From IMG/VR virus record IMGVR_UViG_3300022542_000568, positions 1 through 23,040 of that record: a stretch of DNA of 23,040 nt; one strand, given 5' to 3'. Source of the stretch: a virus. The notes under the pieces are model-generated. The model did no database searches, was not told the DNA's origin, and saw nothing but the letters and a program-made list of their open reading frames with translations. The position numbers and the translations under genes were made by a program. Below, in pieces: positions 175 through 23,040 of the stretch (positions within the stretch are counted from its first letter, which is position 1; each line of letters begins with the position of its first letter).

Positions 175-301
175 GATTTATATCCTTTAATACACATCTA
201 CAATTATAATGAATAGGTGGAGGAATTATTGCTAAATACCAACGTCCTGTTTTTAGAGAATTGTAATGATTTAAATCTAAATTTAATAAATAATCAATCA
301 T
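167..301 (-). CDS. Small 44-residue protein with a PPPIHYNCRC motif
   Basis: This short gene starts at ATG 301, whose ATGA overlaps the stop of the helicase gene. It has a strong AAGGTGG ribosome-binding site 7 bases upstream. It ends at 167, overlapping the start of the next gene. The protein begins MIDYLLNLDLNHYNSLKTGR and contains PPPIHYNCRCVL near its end. A P-P-x-H-x-N-C-R-C-x-L pattern is typical of the C-terminal end of the Mu gpF/SPP1 gp7 minor head protein domain. Here it stands alone in a tiny protein, so it may be chance, a detached domain fragment or a small metal-binding protein. Coding status is supported by the signals at both ends; function is unknown. Confidence 0.55.
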   Translation of the reverse strand: MIDYLLNLDLNHYNSLKTGRWYLAIIPPPIHYNCRCVLKDINHD

Positions 302-1509
302 ATTAATACCACCTTTTTAATTGCTCTAGATAATGCAACATACATTAATCTAGGATACATATCTGATGACTTCTTAAGATCATCCATTGCTATATATACT
401 GTATCAAATTCTTGACCTTGTGCTTTATGTACTGTTGTAGCAAAACTAAATCTTACATCAAATACAAGATCTTTATGCGCCATATATTTAGACCAAGCTT
501 GTCCACGTTCTTTTACATATTTAGCACCTCTATTAACTCTACACCATTTAGTTAGATCAACATTTTTATCAAGGTTATTCTCTGTTACAACTAGATGCTG
601 AAATTTCTCAACATTCTTTCTAAACTTCTTACTGTTCTCATAATGATTTTTATCACTATATATAGTATAAGTCTCTCCATCAATGTTAACTGGAATAACT
701 TTATAATCAGATAAATCAGTATTAAACTTTTCTATATTCTCTTCAATACCTTCAGAAATATCTGGATCATAAAATAACTTTCCTTTCGATAACATTTTAG
801 GATATACTTTACCGTGACATATCTTTGCTATTCCTTCTTGCAGTTTACAATCTAAACTATTTATAATAATATCTCCTGTAAATTTACCTTGCTTAAAAAT
901 CTCATGGTTAATAGCTGCAACTTTCTGATTTGTAAATGCTAAAGCTCTATCGGTTAATGGATTGAAATCATCTATACTTCCATGTTCAAGATCTACATTT
1001 AACTTACCTTTGCCTGTTTTAATATACTTTACAAATCTCATAAAAGTTTCTACAACTTCAGGAGCTTCTGCACGGTGTTGTGTAGTTAACTCAAAAATAT
1101 CTGAACTGTATTTTTTAGGCTTTATTCTCTTTCCACTTACTGGTGGAAGTTGATATGGATCACCAAATATTGTTACCTCACATGCTTCAGGTATGACTTT
1201 AAGCAGCATATCAAATATATCCTTATTGATCATACTAAACTCATCTATAAATATATCAGTAATAAATTCTAAATCAGTATCACCTACCATTTTAAGATTC
1301 TGTATCTTCTGACCTTTTCTAAAGTTCTGATTAATTGTAGGTACTAACTTTAAAACGCTATGTATAGTATAAGCAATAATGCCTTTCTTCATTAATACTT
1401 CAGCAGCTCTATGTGTTGGTGTCATTACCAATGTAGTTTTAGTTGCTCTCTTAGCAAGTTCTGTTGATTTACCAGATCCTGCAAATCCTGTTACGAATTT
1501 AATTCCCAT
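298..1509 (-). CDS. Dda-like SF1 DNA helicase
   Basis: A 403-residue superfamily 1 helicase of the RecD/Dda type, close in size to T4 Dda. Visible motifs in order are Walker A GFAGSGKST (8-16), motif Ia TPTHRAAEVL (30-39), Walker B IDEFSMI (88-94), motif III FGDPYQLPPV (115-124), HKAQGQEFD (361-369) and motif VI YVALSRA (390-396) with the arginine finger. By family it is an ATP-driven 5'-3' helicase that opens replication start sites and clears DNA-bound proteins. It heads a leftward transcript from the promoter at 1540-1563 and diverges from the main replication operon. Its ribosome-binding site AAGGACGAA (1513-1521) is shared with the exonuclease at 3388 and the tail chaperone at 21372. The fold assignment is firm; the in vivo role is inferred. 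Confidence 0.92.
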   Translation of the reverse strand: MGIKFVTGFAGSGKSTELAKRATKTTLVMTPTHRAAEVLMKKGIIAYTIHSVLKLVPTINQNFRKGQKIQNLKMVGDTDLEFITDIFIDEFSMINKDIFDMLLKVIPEACEVTIFGDPYQLPPVSGKRIKPKKYSSDIFELTTQHRAEAPEVVETFMRFVKYIKTGKGKLNVDLEHGSIDDFNPLTDRALAFTNQKVAAINHEIFKQGKFTGDIIINSLDCKLQEGIAKICHGKVYPKMLSKGKLFYDPDISEGIEENIEKFNTDLSDYKVIPVNIDGETYTIYSDKNHYENSKKFRKNVEKFQHLVVTENNLDKNVDLTKWCRVNRGAKYVKERGQAWSKYMAHKDLVFDVRFSFATTVHKAQGQEFDTVYIAMDDLKKSSDMYPRLMYVALSRAIKKVVLI

Positions 1510-1539
1510 CTTTTCGTCCTTTATATAATGTATACTGAA

Positions 1540-1563
1540 ATTATAATCAAAGTTTGTTTAAAG
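1540..1563 (-). promoter_or_regulatory. Phage promoter motif driving the helicase operon
   Basis: On the minus strand this reads CTTTAAACAAACTTTGAT followed directly by TATAAT (1545 down to 1540). It matches the plus-strand copies at 6104 and 9665 base for base over 24 positions. It lies about 30 bases upstream of the helicase ATG and points at it. There is no TTGACA-like box; the conserved part upstream is A/T tracts. Confidence 0.75.
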
Positions 1564-1619
1564 AATTATTAATACACTCTATTTTAATAGATTGTTTATT
1601 TGATTGTACTTTAATAAAA

Positions 1620-1643
1620 CTTTAAACAAAGTTGTACTATAAT
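1620..1643 (+). promoter_or_regulatory. Phage promoter motif driving the first replication operon
   Basis: CTTTAAACAAAGTTGTAC followed by TATAAT (1638-1643). This is a divergent copy of the motif seen at 1540, 6104 and 9665, differing in the stretch just before the -10 box. The leader to the ATG at 1711 is about 60 bases. It holds a small hairpin, ACGA-TTAT-TCGT (1656-1667), and CCC-AAAT-GGG (1687-1696) just before the AAAGGAAG ribosome-binding site. Between this promoter and the leftward one lies an AT-rich spacer with two GATTGT copies (1590 and 1602). Confidence 0.7.
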
Positions 1644-1710
1644 TTTCTCATGCAAACGATTATTCGTCTTGTAAATACATAAAAATCCCAAATGGGTAAA
1701 AGGAAGTCAA

Positions 1711-3280: not shown

Positions 3281-3302
3281 AGAGCTCTCTTAGGAGAGTT
3301 CT
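3281..3302 (+). terminator. Hairpin after MazG-like gene, possible weak terminator
   Basis: AGAGCTCTC (3281-3289), loop TTAG, and GAGAGTTCT (3294-3302) form a 9-bp stem with one G-U pair, 7 bases after the stop codon. The following U-tract is poor (TTTAG). It could attenuate transcription or protect the 3' end of the upstream message rather than terminate fully. Confidence 0.5.
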
Positions 3303-3321
3303 TTAGTGATGACGATTAGCA

Positions 3322-3355
3322 ATGAGCCAAGAATGGAACTCATGTCAGCCTTTTT
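3322..3355 (+). terminator. Second hairpin with T-run before the exonuclease gene
   Basis: ATGAGCCA, loop AGAA, then TGG-AA-CTCAT gives an 8-bp stem with a two-base bulge (3322-3343). After a short spacer comes TTTTT (3351-3355). With the hairpin at 3281 this makes a tandem structure in the only sizeable gap of the first operon. It may partially separate expression of the ssDNA-binding/MazG part from the exonuclease/polymerase part. No promoter-like motif of the phage type follows it. Confidence 0.35.
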
Positions 3356-3387
3356 AGATCATACTATTAAAACCCAAGGACGAACTT

Positions 3388-3909
3388 ATGAAAAAGAAAA
3401 CAATATGGTTAGATTTAGAAACAACAGGTCTAAATCCAAATGAAAATGGAATTGTACAAATAGCAATGTTGGTTGAAATTGATGGTAAAATAGTTGATAA
3501 GTTTGAAACTAAAATGAATCCAGGTAAGGTTAAATTTAGTCAATATGCTTTAGAAGTAAATAAACTTACTAAAAAGAAAATTCAATCATATCCATCTAAA
3601 GAAGATGTAGTTAAGAAATTAGATATATTTTTAAATGAACATAAAATTAAAGATAAATTAACTATTGGTGGCTATAACGTTAAATTTGATATTAAATTCT
3701 TATCTAAGATCATTAACTTTACTAACTATTTTCATTGGTATGATGTTGATGTATTTGCTTTATTAAAAGTTAAAAGACAACTTGGTAAATACGATGGTGG
3801 TATGAAATTAGTAGAAGCATGTCAATACTTTAAAATTAAACATGACGCTCATGAAGCGATGTCTGACATTAAAGCTACTCGTAAACTATATAAAAAGCTG
3901 CTTAAATGA
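3388..3909 (+). CDS. DEDDh 3'-5' exonuclease (DnaQ/oligoribonuclease-like)
   Basis: A 173-residue protein of the DnaQ-like exonuclease family. Catalytic residues of the DEDDh set are visible: Asp9 and Glu11 in WLDLETTGL, Asp101 in GYNVKFDIKFL, and His155 and Asp160 in HEAMSDIKAT. These enzymes remove nucleotides from 3' ends with two metal ions. The polymerase downstream has its own exonuclease domain, so this protein may act in trimming, repair or RNA turnover. The ribosome-binding region is AAGGACGAAC (3376-3385). The 17 bases 3372-3388, ending on the A of the ATG, recur exactly at 21409-21425 inside a hairpin loop. It overlaps the next gene by ATGA. Confidence 0.88.
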   Translation: MKKKTIWLDLETTGLNPNENGIVQIAMLVEIDGKIVDKFETKMNPGKVKFSQYALEVNKLTKKKIQSYPSKEDVVKKLDIFLNEHKIKDKLTIGGYNVKFDIKFLSKIINFTNYFHWYDVDVFALLKVKRQLGKYDGGMKLVEACQYFKIKHDAHEAMSDIKATRKLYKKLLK

Positions 3910-17579: not shown

Positions 17580-18451
17580 TAGAATTTCCTTGCTTCAATA
17601 TTTGTAAACCAATCATTGCTTTTTGTATCACCAACGTGTTGGATTTTATCTGCTCGATAAATACCTTCACCTATTGTTGGTGGAATTTTTCTAAATATTA
17701 AATTACCAACATTAATCTTCGCACTTATAGATTTAACCTCTATACGTCTTCCAAGTTTAAGTTGAGGTATTAACAGTGATTTAACTTTAACACCAACCTC
17801 AGTAAGCTCTGGACTTCCTATCATACCATTATCTTGTCTAATTTCTAAAATAGGATCATCGTTTAATGGTTTACCTTTAATTGTTGTTTCAATAACATCA
17901 TTATTTATTGAATAATCAAATCCACAATTCTGAGCTAATTTATCAAGCCAATCTTTTACATTACCTGATAATACTAAACCGCGTAATAATGATCTTTTTT
18001 TAGTTATACAATCTTTTAAACCTTCAGTAACACCTTTAGTAACGCCTTCCATCTCATTTACTAATTCATCAAATATACTTTCAGTTGTTTGACCAGGTGG
18101 AAGTGTTTTATTTACTGTTGAACCATTTATAACTTTCATAGCGTCACCACAAAACAAATTTGTAATCCAATCAGGTCCTTGTTTTTCATGAGTAACGTTA
18201 ACTATATCACCTGTAAAAATTAAAGATGAATTTCCTTCATAACCAGCATATAATCGTATCTTTGTAAACTCTTCTTTAATCTTATTTCTATTAGATTTAT
18301 TTAGATTATAAACTTGAATGGTTGCCACACTTGGAAAACCAACAAGAGATAATTCAACATTAAAAGATATTCTTAAATCTATTATTTCAAGTCCACCTGA
18401 ATTAGGATCACCTACAATAAGTCTAGCTTCTCTATTAAAAAATTCAGCCAT
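17579..18451 (-). CDS. Baseplate hub protein, gpD/gp27-like
   Basis: A 290-residue protein in hub position between the gp18-like plug and the spike. The N-terminus (EARLIVGDPNSGGLEIIDLR, then ATIQVYNLNKSNRNKI and YAGYEGNSSLIFTGDIVNV) is the first hub tube-like barrel, as found in T4 gp27/P2 gpD-type phage proteins. GNVKDWLDKLAQNCGFDYSI is the helical insert, and the C-terminal region is the second barrel (GIYRADKIQHVGDTKSNDWF). Three copies should make the platform that binds the spike. It overlaps the upstream gene by 8 bases. Confidence 0.78.
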   Translation of the reverse strand: MAEFFNREARLIVGDPNSGGLEIIDLRISFNVELSLVGFPSVATIQVYNLNKSNRNKIKEEFTKIRLYAGYEGNSSLIFTGDIVNVTHEKQGPDWITNLFCGDAMKVINGSTVNKTLPPGQTTESIFDELVNEMEGVTKGVTEGLKDCITKKRSLLRGLVLSGNVKDWLDKLAQNCGFDYSINNDVIETTIKGKPLNDDPILEIRQDNGMIGSPELTEVGVKVKSLLIPQLKLGRRIEVKSISAKINVGNLIFRKIPPTIGEGIYRADKIQHVGDTKSNDWFTNIEARKF

Positions 18452-20788: not shown

Positions 20789-21372
20789 CTTTTTCTTATT
20801 AGCTTCTTTATTTGCTAAATGTTCCGCCTCTAATTTTAAATTTAAAGCTTCATGAAAATCATGGAGATCTGATAAAGTATATACAGTTCTCAACTCATTT
20901 AACGTACACAATCCTTCTATAATAGGTCTATAGATAAATAGATCTATATTTAATTCTCGAGGTTCTGATTTACCTCTTGGAATATTGAATTTAATCCGAG
21001 CTTTCCCAGCACGTCACTGAAGTTAACCTCTAAAATAAATAAAGCAACTAACCACATATCTGTTGTCTTACCAGAAAAATATGTATTGAATTCAACCGGT
21101 GTATCTATTGGATGACCTTCAGCAACTTTAACATAGAAAATACCCTTTTCAAATAACTTAGTAATTAATGATATAACGTTATGATCATCAATATTATCTG
21201 TTAATTTTGAAATAGCTTTTTTAACACTATCTTTGTCAGCACCACCTGATAATTCACCAAATGATCCACCTAAAATTCTTATTAACTTTGATTGTATACT
21301 TAACGCAGTAAGCGCATCCATTGTAGTAACCTTATAAGTTACGCCATTAATTGTTTTTGACTCTTGTTTCAT
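20786..21372 (-). CDS. Tail assembly chaperone, -1 frameshift product (GT-like)
   Basis: This is the extended form of the gene at 21372-20950. Translation in the zero frame for 124 codons to the slippery GGGAAAG (21007-21001), followed by a -1 shift, continues with GCT CGG ATT. It adds 71 residues (ARIKFNIPRGKSEPRELNID... LANKEANKKK) to a TGA at 20786, for 195 residues in all. The -1 frame has no start codon and is closed by a TGA at 21016-21014, four codons before the site, so it is reachable only by frameshift. The layout matches lambda G/GT: just upstream of the tape measure, same heptamer. The T part should bind the tail tube protein while the G part binds the tape measure. Confidence 0.85.
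20950..21372 (-). CDS. Tail assembly chaperone, zero-frame product (G-like)
   Basis: A 140-residue tail assembly chaperone between the tube and tape measure genes. The helical protein starts MKQESKTINGVTYKVTTMDA, with LTALSIQSKLIRILGGSFGE following. The family resemblance (short gp24/DUF-type Mu/Pam3 tail chaperones) is modest, but position and the internal frameshift site are diagnostic. Ribosome-binding site AAGGACGAAC (21383-21374) is complementary to the loop of the hairpin just upstream (21390-21448), so initiation may be regulated. After the slippery site this form has only 16 further residues. Confidence 0.85.
   Translation of the reverse strand: MKQESKTINGVTYKVTTMDALTALSIQSKLIRILGGSFGELSGGADKDSVKKAISKLTDNIDDHNVISLITKLFEKGIFYVKVAEGHPIDTPVEFNTYFSGKTTDMWLVALFILEVNFSDVLGKLGLNSIFQEVNQNLEN
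21001..21007 (-). promoter_or_regulatory. Slippery heptamer GGGAAAG for -1 frameshift
   Basis: In the chaperone zero frame the codons are CTG GGA AAG, giving the X-XXY-YYZ site G-GGA-AAG, the same heptamer used by phage lambda G/GT. A weak hairpin, GAGGT/ACCTC (20959-20976), follows about 24 bases downstream. No strong pseudoknot is evident, as in lambda. Confidence 0.85.
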
Positions 21373-21389
21373 TGTTCGTCCTTTTAAAA

Positions 21390-21448
21390 TAGATTAATGA
21401 GAGAACATACCCAAGGACGAACTTAAAGTATGTGCTCACATTAATCTA
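21390..21448 (-). promoter_or_regulatory. Long hairpin with loop complementary to ribosome-binding sites
   Basis: The two 21-base arms (21390-21410 and 21428-21448) pair at 19 positions: 10 bp, a mismatch, 3 bp, a mismatch, then 6 bp. The 17-base loop in the late (minus) mRNA contains GTTCGTCCTT (21422-21413). This is exactly complementary to AAGGACGAAC at 21383-21374, the ribosome-binding region of the chaperone gene 18 bases before its ATG end. The order arm-loop-arm-RBS means the loop-RBS pairing would compete with, or make a pseudoknot on, the hairpin. The same loop region is complementary over 17 nt to 3372-3388, the start region of the early exonuclease. A translational control element is inferred. 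Confidence 0.6.
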
Positions 21449-21456
21449 CGATATAG

Positions 21457-21480
21457 GTATAGAGAAATTAATCTCTATAC
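21457..21480 (-). terminator. Hairpin at the end of the tube gene
   Basis: GTATAGAGA (21457-21465), loop AATTAA, TCTCTATAC (21472-21480): a perfect 9-bp stem that includes the tube gene's TAG stop (21477-21475). No U-tract follows on the minus strand, so it is more likely an mRNA 3'-end protector or partial attenuator. That would help make more tube than chaperone. Confidence 0.45.
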
Positions 21481-21894
21481 AATAACCATAGTACCAAAAT
21501 CTGTTCTGAATGTAAATTCAACAGCATTAGCATTTTGTCCACGAACAATATCTGGAGATTTAGAAATCCAAGCATTGTTTCCAACAAATGTTTCTCCAGT
21601 CTCTTTATTGATAACTGTTAATGGCAATACATTAGCACCAGTTTCACGATCTAAATTGTAAAGAGTCATTAGATCTTTATAACTTTGTGAAGTTTGTAAA
21701 AGCTTAACAGTACATGTTGCACGATTATCATTTGTTTGAGTACGTGTAACATCACCTTTAGCACCAGCAACATCAGTGAATTGATCAGTATCAAAAGTGA
21801 TATTGACAACATCGTCACCTTCAGCAAATCCTTGAATTTCAAGAATTCCGAAGATAACATTTACGTTAGTAAAAGAATAATTTCCAAATGCCAT
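21475..21894 (-). CDS. Tail tube protein, DUF3277-like
   Basis: A 139-residue major tail tube protein. The DUF3277 pattern is visible: YSFTNVNVIFGILEIQGFAE at the N-terminus, DTDQFTDVAGAKGDVTRTQT with DNRATCTVKLLQTSQSYKDL following, NAWISKSPDIV, and a final strand VEFTFRTDFGTMVIV. Hexamers stack to form the inner tube. It sits between sheath and chaperone as in Mu-like and Pam3-like tails, with AAGGAGC upstream of the ATG. Its stop lies within a stable hairpin. Confidence 0.88.
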   Translation of the reverse strand: MAFGNYSFTNVNVIFGILEIQGFAEGDDVVNITFDTDQFTDVAGAKGDVTRTQTNDNRATCTVKLLQTSQSYKDLMTLYNLDRETGANVLPLTVINKETGETFVGNNAWISKSPDIVRGQNANAVEFTFRTDFGTMVIV

Positions 21895-21904
21895 TTATAG
21901 CTCC

Positions 21905-23040
21905 TTATATTGATACGATACCACGGACGATAATAGTATTAATACCGCCTGTAAGTTCTGCAGTGAATGTTCCACCAGGTAATTTACGATCATCTCTATC
22001 AGTTTGATCTACATCAGCTCTTTTAGGAAAGAATGTAACAACTGTTTGATCTACAAGAATACCTTGATTTACACCATATGTTTGTAGAAGTGTTTTTAGA
22101 CGTGTATCTACAATTGTAATACCACCATCTGTAAATGGAATAATATCTTTTTCAAGTAAAAGACTCATTAAACCTTCTTCAACACGTGCTTGAAGAAAAT
22201 CAATATTGATGATGATGTCGATATATTCACCTTCTTTATCAATATTCTTACCACCAGTCATAGTGCCAAAATAAATAAAATCAGCACCAAGTGTTGTAGT
22301 ATAAACATTAACATTAACATCTTCAGCAGCATCAATTTGAGTCTGTGTAAGATTTGATGTTTCAATTTCTTGAGTTGCGCCTTGTGCAATACCGGCTAAA
22401 GTTTTATAAGCCCAGTTAGTTGATCCAACATCTTTAGGAAGTTGTTGACCCATCCAAGACCAATCAGGATAAACTAAATCATTATCATGATAAGTTAATG
22501 AAGTACGTTTATAGTTTTTAGCTTTAAGTATTGCAGCTAAAGAGGCTGATGAACCAAGAACTAAAGTATTTGCATCATTTGTAACAGCAATCATAATATT
22601 GCGATTAGACTCAATTTGATCAGCAAGATCTTCAGTGAATTGAATATCTCTTAAAGCTTTAATAAGACCTAAAGCATACCAAGAGTTATTAGCATTTTTA
22701 ATTGCAAGTAACATCTCAGCAGCTGTTTCAGCAATTTGACCTTGAGATAATAATGATCCACCTGGATTAGAAGGAGATTTAATAACATCACCATCTAAGA
22801 AACCTGTACCGCTAATATCTGTACCAGCTGGAATTGCAACAGTTTGAAGTAGTGTAATAGTTGAAGTAATGCCAGTTGTATCACTTGTAAATACAAAGCG
22901 ATTAATAACATAAGCAACACTTACACCAGCTGTTCCAAGTGAAATAACGCTTGCTACATCATCAAGACTTGTTACACCTGAAAAATTCAAACCAGTTACA
23001 TCAACAAGTCCACCATCAATAGTTACACCAAATTCACCAT
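21905..23040 (-). CDS. Tail sheath protein, DUF3383-like (N-terminus outside window)
   Basis: At least 378 codons of a contractile sheath protein. The C-terminal two thirds match DUF3383 sheaths: RTSLTYHDNDLVYPDWSWMG, then GSTNWAYKTLAGIAQG, VNVNVYTTTLGADFIYFGTM, EYIDIIINIDFLQARVEEGL, FTDGGITIVDTRL and DRDDRKLPGGTFTAELTGGI. The frame stays open to the window edge (GEFGVTIDGGLVDVTG precedes NFSGVTSLDDVA), so the TTG at 22990 is internal, not a start. By family, the sheath contracts to drive the tube and spike into the cell. It is the first tail gene visible in the leftward late operon. Confidence 0.9.
   Translation of the reverse strand, partial: GEFGVTIDGGLVDVTGLNFSGVTSLDDVASVISLGTAGVSVAYVINRFVFTSDTTGITSTITLLQTVAIPAGTDISGTGFLDGDVIKSPSNPGGSLLSQGQIAETAAEMLLAIKNANNSWYALGLIKALRDIQFTEDLADQIESNRNIMIAVTNDANTLVLGSSASLAAILKAKNYKRTSLTYHDNDLVYPDWSWMGQQLPKDVGSTNWAYKTLAGIAQGATQEIETSNLTQTQIDAAEDVNVNVYTTTLGADFIYFGTMTGGKNIDKEGEYIDIIINIDFLQARVEEGLMSLLLEKDIIPFTDGGITIVDTRLKTLLQTYGVNQGILVDQTVVTFFPKRADVDQTDRDDRKLPGGTFTAELTGGINTIIVRGIVSI

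Follow-up and report, generated by a model that had tools for sequence, protein, structure and literature searches.

Does the short gap between the tail tube and tail chaperone genes of a phage hold an RNA structure that sets how much chaperone is made? The question is raised by a 23,040-base virus fragment (IMG/VR record IMGVR_UViG_3300022542_000568, positions 1 to 23,040), here called the window, the minus strand of which carries a tail operon with the sheath, tube, chaperone and tape measure genes. The tube gene (21475..21894 (-), KPP10_Orf10 / phrog_280 family) ends with a stop codon at 21477-21475 (-), and the chaperone gene (20950..21372 (-), Phage_TAC_15 / phrog_1613) starts with the ATG at 21372-21370 (-), which leaves a gap of 102 nt. 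Close to the end of the chaperone gene there is a probable -1 frameshift site of the lambda-like G/GT type, GGGAAAG (21001..21007 (-)). In nine of the ten relatives checked, this heptamer or AAAAAAG occurs at nucleotide 365 of the chaperone gene, in the same phase (in L004 the position is numbered from an upstream ATG, the site is the same). The protein is probably a tail chaperone of the G/GT type.

Layout of the leader

The leader, read along the minus strand, begins with a hairpin, P0 (21457..21480, GTATAGAGA-TTAATT-TCTCTATAC), which overlaps with the stop codon of the tube gene; in most relatives a small hairpin, often with a UUCG loop, occurs at this place. Further downstream are arm A (21428..21448), the 5' strand of the predicted helix S1; the segment L1 (TTTAA, 21423..21427); the loop word S2a (GTTCGTCCTT, 21413..21422); arm A' (21390..21410), the 3' strand of S1; a 6-nt link, L3 (TTTTAA, 21384..21389), joining the stem to the ribosome-binding site (RBS); and the RBS word S2b (AAGGACGAAC, 21374..21383), which contains the chaperone Shine-Dalgarno. 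An earlier note on this DNA had located arm A, the loop word, arm A' and the RBS word, and all four are where it placed them, within the 102-nt gap. Its description of the pairings was also accurate: the two 21-nt arms, separated by 17 nt, are 90% complementary with two mismatches, and the loop word and the RBS word are perfect reverse complements across 10 nt. A hairpin that carries in its loop the complement of the Shine-Dalgarno region farther downstream is one of the features expected of Shine-Dalgarno-sequestering H-type pseudoknots, and the leader has it. In leaders of this kind, called type I below, the strand that enters the second predicted helix, S2, covers the Shine-Dalgarno and the spacer.

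The hairpin with its loop:RBS complementarity is a correct observation and stands above chance. The fold of 21480-21370 has an energy of -36.9 kcal/mol, compared with -16.4 +/- 2.9 for shuffled sequences (z = -7.05), and when the stem was kept fixed and the 39-nt interior was shuffled, an equally stable loop:RBS helix appeared in 2 of 2000 shuffles. A blind scan for the same signature in 241 gene leaders of five phage contigs, the window and four related ones, put the five chaperone leaders at ranks 1-5 with energies from -50.0 to -39.0 kcal/mol, the sixth leader being far behind (-24.9). Among the leaders scanned the signature is confined to the chaperone gene.

Some other noncoding features were recorded in the same contigs. 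The sequence AAGGACG is over-used as a Shine-Dalgarno, making up 3 of 13 AAGGA sites in the window and 9 of 28 in contig G005; such sites lie at 1515-1521 (-) and 3376-3382 (+) of the window, and also in L084 and L085. About 64 nt of noncoding sequence, GTGATGACGATTAGCAATGAGCCAAGAATGGAACTCATGTCAGCCTTTTTAGATCATACTATTA, at about 3292-3362 (+) of the window, recurs unchanged in contig G009 (L086, about 18297-18367), where it precedes a different gene, and an AAGGACG RBS follows both copies. Between divergent genes, upstream of the gene at 298-1509(-), there is a 35-nt imperfect A-T-rich inverted repeat (window 1538-1645, RNA fold z = -3.0), which is possibly a replication or control site.

Conservation in close relatives

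Type I leaders were compared in ten phages, the window and nine IMG/VR contigs whose tube proteins are 82-96% identical. Both pairings and the architecture are retained in all ten. The loop is almost invariant, AGTTCGTCC, followed by TT in nine, L1 keeps at least three T in all ten, and the RBS is AAGGACG in all close relatives. With S1 and S2 pooled, standard pairs fill 92.5% of the cells, compared with 85.0 +/- 1.0% after column shuffles and 37-49% with slid partners.

The earlier note had called for covariation of both helices, and for S1 this was found: two-sided changes occur at 11 pairs, every one of them in S1, and the predicted helix formed by arms A and A' is supported by these compensatory changes. 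For S2 the type I leaders did not give the same result, six of its ten pairs never vary, three show one-sided variants and none a two-sided change, so in the close clade S2 alone is not proven by covariation. In L003 a 1-nt insertion cuts S2 down to 7 bp; L001 and L002 retain loop:RBS helices of 12 bp.

Distant relatives

The evidence that S2 covaries comes from more distant phages. Three of them, L064 (tube protein 63% identity), L133 and L069, have leaders, here called type II, with the same layout, each with a different S1 and with other words that are still complementary. Their stems are perfect or near-perfect and enclose an inner hairpin, and are only about 10-11 bp long, compared with about 20 bp for the S1 of type I leaders. 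L133 pairs TCACCTCATT with AATGAGGTGA over 10 bp, a match reached in 2 of 5000 shuffles. L064 pairs CCTCATTG with CAATGAGG, and L069 pairs TCCTCAT with ATGAGGA; these two matches are only moderately rare (p about 0.03 in each), and taken alone they are weak evidence for an S2 in these leaders. The putative helix of L069 sits just upstream of the likely Shine-Dalgarno. In L064 and L133 the loop-matched word, AATGAGG, occurs twice in the last 35 nt before the chaperone start, and the loop could pair with either copy. Compensatory change is thus seen in both helices, in S1 by pair counts and in S2 by replacement of the whole word between type I and type II. The outcome named beforehand as refuting, loss of both helices without compensation, did not occur within the leader-bearing phages.

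At least 11 other distant relatives have the same genes and no such element; their chaperone start lies 9-37 nt past the tube stop, mostly 9-24 nt. This makes the element a lineage-specific addition. In seven GenBank phages that share this gene neighbourhood (MiCath, POR1, MW202455, MW202816, pOW20-A, PSKM and RHEph04) the annotated tube-chaperone gaps are 9-83 nt, and in the five gap sequences inspected there was no comparable element; the gap of PSKM has a terminator-like hairpin. In a chaperone tree the type I leaders group together and the type II leaders are scattered among leaderless relatives, a pattern compatible both with a single origin followed by losses and with repeated gain. A blastn search with the leader region matched no phage record, and scanning bacterial genomes for prophages yielded just a single truncated contig.

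Two further pattern matches were set aside. The one in L014 is located within apparent coding sequence and was judged a chance match, and the one in L017, at the contig end of an unrelated phage, was not counted. At the latter place (L088 1-125, minus strand, at the start of contig G010) a hairpin has the loop GTTCGTCCTT and, downstream of it, AAAAGGACGAA; the contig belongs to a different phage, whose genes include amidase and holin-like ones, and it ends before any start codon.

Pseudoknot or competing folds

Can the two helices form together, or do they exclude each other? If S1 and S2 were mutually exclusive, the RBS would open and close with the balance between them, which might respond to a ribosome at the tube stop or to invasion of arm A by P0. 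Some leaders would suit such a switch: in L006 the nested fold closed by S2 equals the best fold in stability, in L009 and L133 the two differ by no more than about 2 kcal/mol, and inspection by eye shows that P0 of several relatives can extend into the basal GTAG of arm A. In most type I members, the window among them, however, S1 is ahead by 5-18 kcal/mol when only exclusive nested folds are allowed, and the S1 hairpin is transcribed ahead of the RBS, which would leave a mutually exclusive RBS-closed state almost empty. When the loop:RBS helix was imposed on a nested fold, about 10.4 kcal/mol was lost in the window, with losses of 17.6 for L001, 13.0 for L002 and smaller ones for others. The view of the earlier note that the two pairings probably compete is weakened by these energies, as the lead of S1 over a nested S2 is about 10 kcal/mol for the window and reaches 18 in relatives, and we regard a two-state switch as unlikely.

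That S2 is conserved even though it would be nearly unpopulated as a nested helix in most members argues for the co-formation of S1 and S2. Likewise, the retention of a 12-bp S2 in L001 and L002 despite its energy cost is explained mainly by joint formation of the two helices in a pseudoknot.

The earlier note had considered a complete pseudoknot improbable because of the short link. By an A-form estimate about 11-12 nt are needed to cross 20-21 bp of S1, and 8 nt to cross 11 bp. With the 6-nt link of the window, about 3-4 A-T-rich pairs at the base of S1 would have to open, or S2 would have to be shortened. The link is thus a weaker obstacle than had been thought: S1 and S2 together appear sterically possible if about 3-4 A-T-rich pairs fray. 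Some relatives have a link of 10-14 nt or an 11-bp stem; the link is 10 nt in L006 and L009 and, if the second copy of the word is used, 14 nt in L064 and 20 nt in L133.

Pseudoknot energies were calculated with a generic penalty of 9.6 kcal/mol and simplified A-form geometry and are rough. Of the nine close relatives evaluated, eight had a pseudoknot energy below that of the nested fold (the window, -3.6; L002; L004-L009), and in L001 the two folds were equal within 0.2 kcal/mol. For L003 the script gave no allowed pseudoknot, probably because the preferred extension of S1 leaves no first loop. The type II leaders entered in the model were L064 and L069, and their pseudoknots came out about 8 kcal/mol worse, in a crude model that ignores their inner hairpin.

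Processing, trans-acting RNA and termination

An RNA-processing site is a somewhat less probable alternative than the two-state switch. RNase III or another RNase would cut S1 and so separate the chaperone mRNA from a stable tube mRNA, whose 3' end P0 would protect; with the loop word cut away, the RBS would become accessible. The S1 of type I leaders, at about 20 bp, and the small stable hairpin after the tube stop in most leaders are in line with this, but the type II stems of just 10-11 bp are not, and the conserved loop:RBS complementarity would be left unexplained. Processing could also coexist with a pseudoknot.

Alternatively, the hairpin might act in trans, within an RNA derived from the 3' UTR, by pairing its loop with the RBS of further phage genes sharing AAGGACGAA. 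Such RBS words do exist, AAGGACGAAA at gene 298-1509(-) and AAGGACGAAC at gene 3388-3909(+), in keeping with the over-use of AAGGACG as RBS. Every copy of the element, however, retains its downstream cis partner, the type II loop word changes together with the cis RBS, and no promoter or terminator delimits a separate RNA; we think this reading very improbable. Least credible of all is a transcription terminator or attenuator, to which a strong hairpin between two late genes might point, since it leaves the loop:RBS word unexplained, and an intrinsic terminator was rejected because no T-tract follows the stem and no terminator-like site turned up in 20900-22000.

Comparison with known systems

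The SAM-II and preQ1-II riboswitches are bacterial H-type pseudoknots that sequester the Shine-Dalgarno, and the first loop of SAM-II is U-rich. In these, as is predicted for the leader, a hairpin loop pairs with the Shine-Dalgarno region into a pseudoknot, and the leader would, by analogy, share this design. The leader differs from them in its lack of an Rfam sequence match, in the much longer S1 of type I, and in its position between cistrons of a phage late operon rather than ahead of a metabolic gene. In Rfam no family scored above its gathering score, and the sub-threshold matches to miRNA and snoRNA models were at chance level, no more than is expected for a bare hairpin.

Among phages, the gene 32 mRNA of T4, T2 and RB69 has a pseudoknot about 67 nt upstream, which nucleates gp32 binding over an unstructured RBS (PMC3014915). 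Like the predicted leader fold, this pseudoknot precedes the start codon in a phage mRNA and is linked to translation control, but in the leader the RBS itself would be one strand of the pseudoknot, in helix S2, so that the gene 32 arrangement, a pseudoknot well upstream of an unstructured RBS, is not found here. A 2010 review held gene 32 to be perhaps the only viral pseudoknot serving translational autoregulation (PMC3014915). In T4 genes e, soc, 49 and I-TevI the Shine-Dalgarno is hidden in an RNA helix at the start site, which lowers initiation, and for gene e and I-TevI open transcripts arise from a late promoter that lies within or beside the structure (PMC3014915). The leader would similarly sequester a phage Shine-Dalgarno in an RNA helix, with the difference that the pairing partner is the loop of another hairpin. 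A sigma-70-type scan, the consensus of which may not be that of the late promoters of this phage, detected no promoter inside the element. The E. coli rpsO operator is a pseudoknot bound by its own ribosomal protein, S15 (PMC4684408). It is, as proposed for the leader, a translation-start pseudoknot controlling translation; its structure is unrelated in sequence to the leader, and it is bound by S15, whereas no such protein is known for the leader.

Proposed mechanism and significance

The reading we favour, and hold to be fairly probable on sequence comparison and modelling, is that the leader folds into an H-type pseudoknot, sequesters the Shine-Dalgarno and so throttles translation of the tail chaperone, uncoupled from that of the abundant tube protein. 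The tube-chaperone gap would encode a cis-acting mRNA leader in which helix S1, formed by A and A', presents the loop word. With a few A-T-rich pairs at the base of S1 frayed so that the link can reach, the loop word would pair with the chaperone Shine-Dalgarno region as helix S2. The occluded Shine-Dalgarno would throttle initiation on the chaperone, uncoupled from tube translation, and the reduced output of chaperone relative to tube protein would set the chaperone:tube stoichiometry. In relatives that lack the leader, by contrast, the two genes lie nearly end to end. We infer that the pseudoknot forms in the cell, represses translation and sets this stoichiometry; the direction of the effect, repression of chaperone initiation, is the one that occlusion of the Shine-Dalgarno would suggest. 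It is possible that some trigger, be it a protein, a ligand, a ribosome or an RNase, opens the pseudoknot.

The conserved T-run in L1, beside the A-rich S2b, may resemble the arrangement in triple-helix pseudoknots. A bolder proposal, which we put forward only tentatively, is that the leaders represent a new class of phage regulatory RNA, a long-stem, possibly triple-helix Shine-Dalgarno pseudoknot that would sense a phage signal, e.g. free tube or chaperone protein, and adjust chaperone synthesis to tail assembly.

We found no earlier report of such an element before a tail chaperone in the open-licence literature, and there is scant documentation of viral pseudoknots controlling translation through engagement of the Shine-Dalgarno. 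Related phages with and without the leader form a natural contrast that makes the function directly testable. Lambda uses frameshifting to set the ratio of gpG to gpGT at about 30:1, a ratio that is important for assembly (PMC5009743). Tails depend for their length and assembly on the proportions of the chaperone products, and the leader, if our reading is true, would be a second RNA-level control on the chaperone gene, acting at initiation, before frameshifting.
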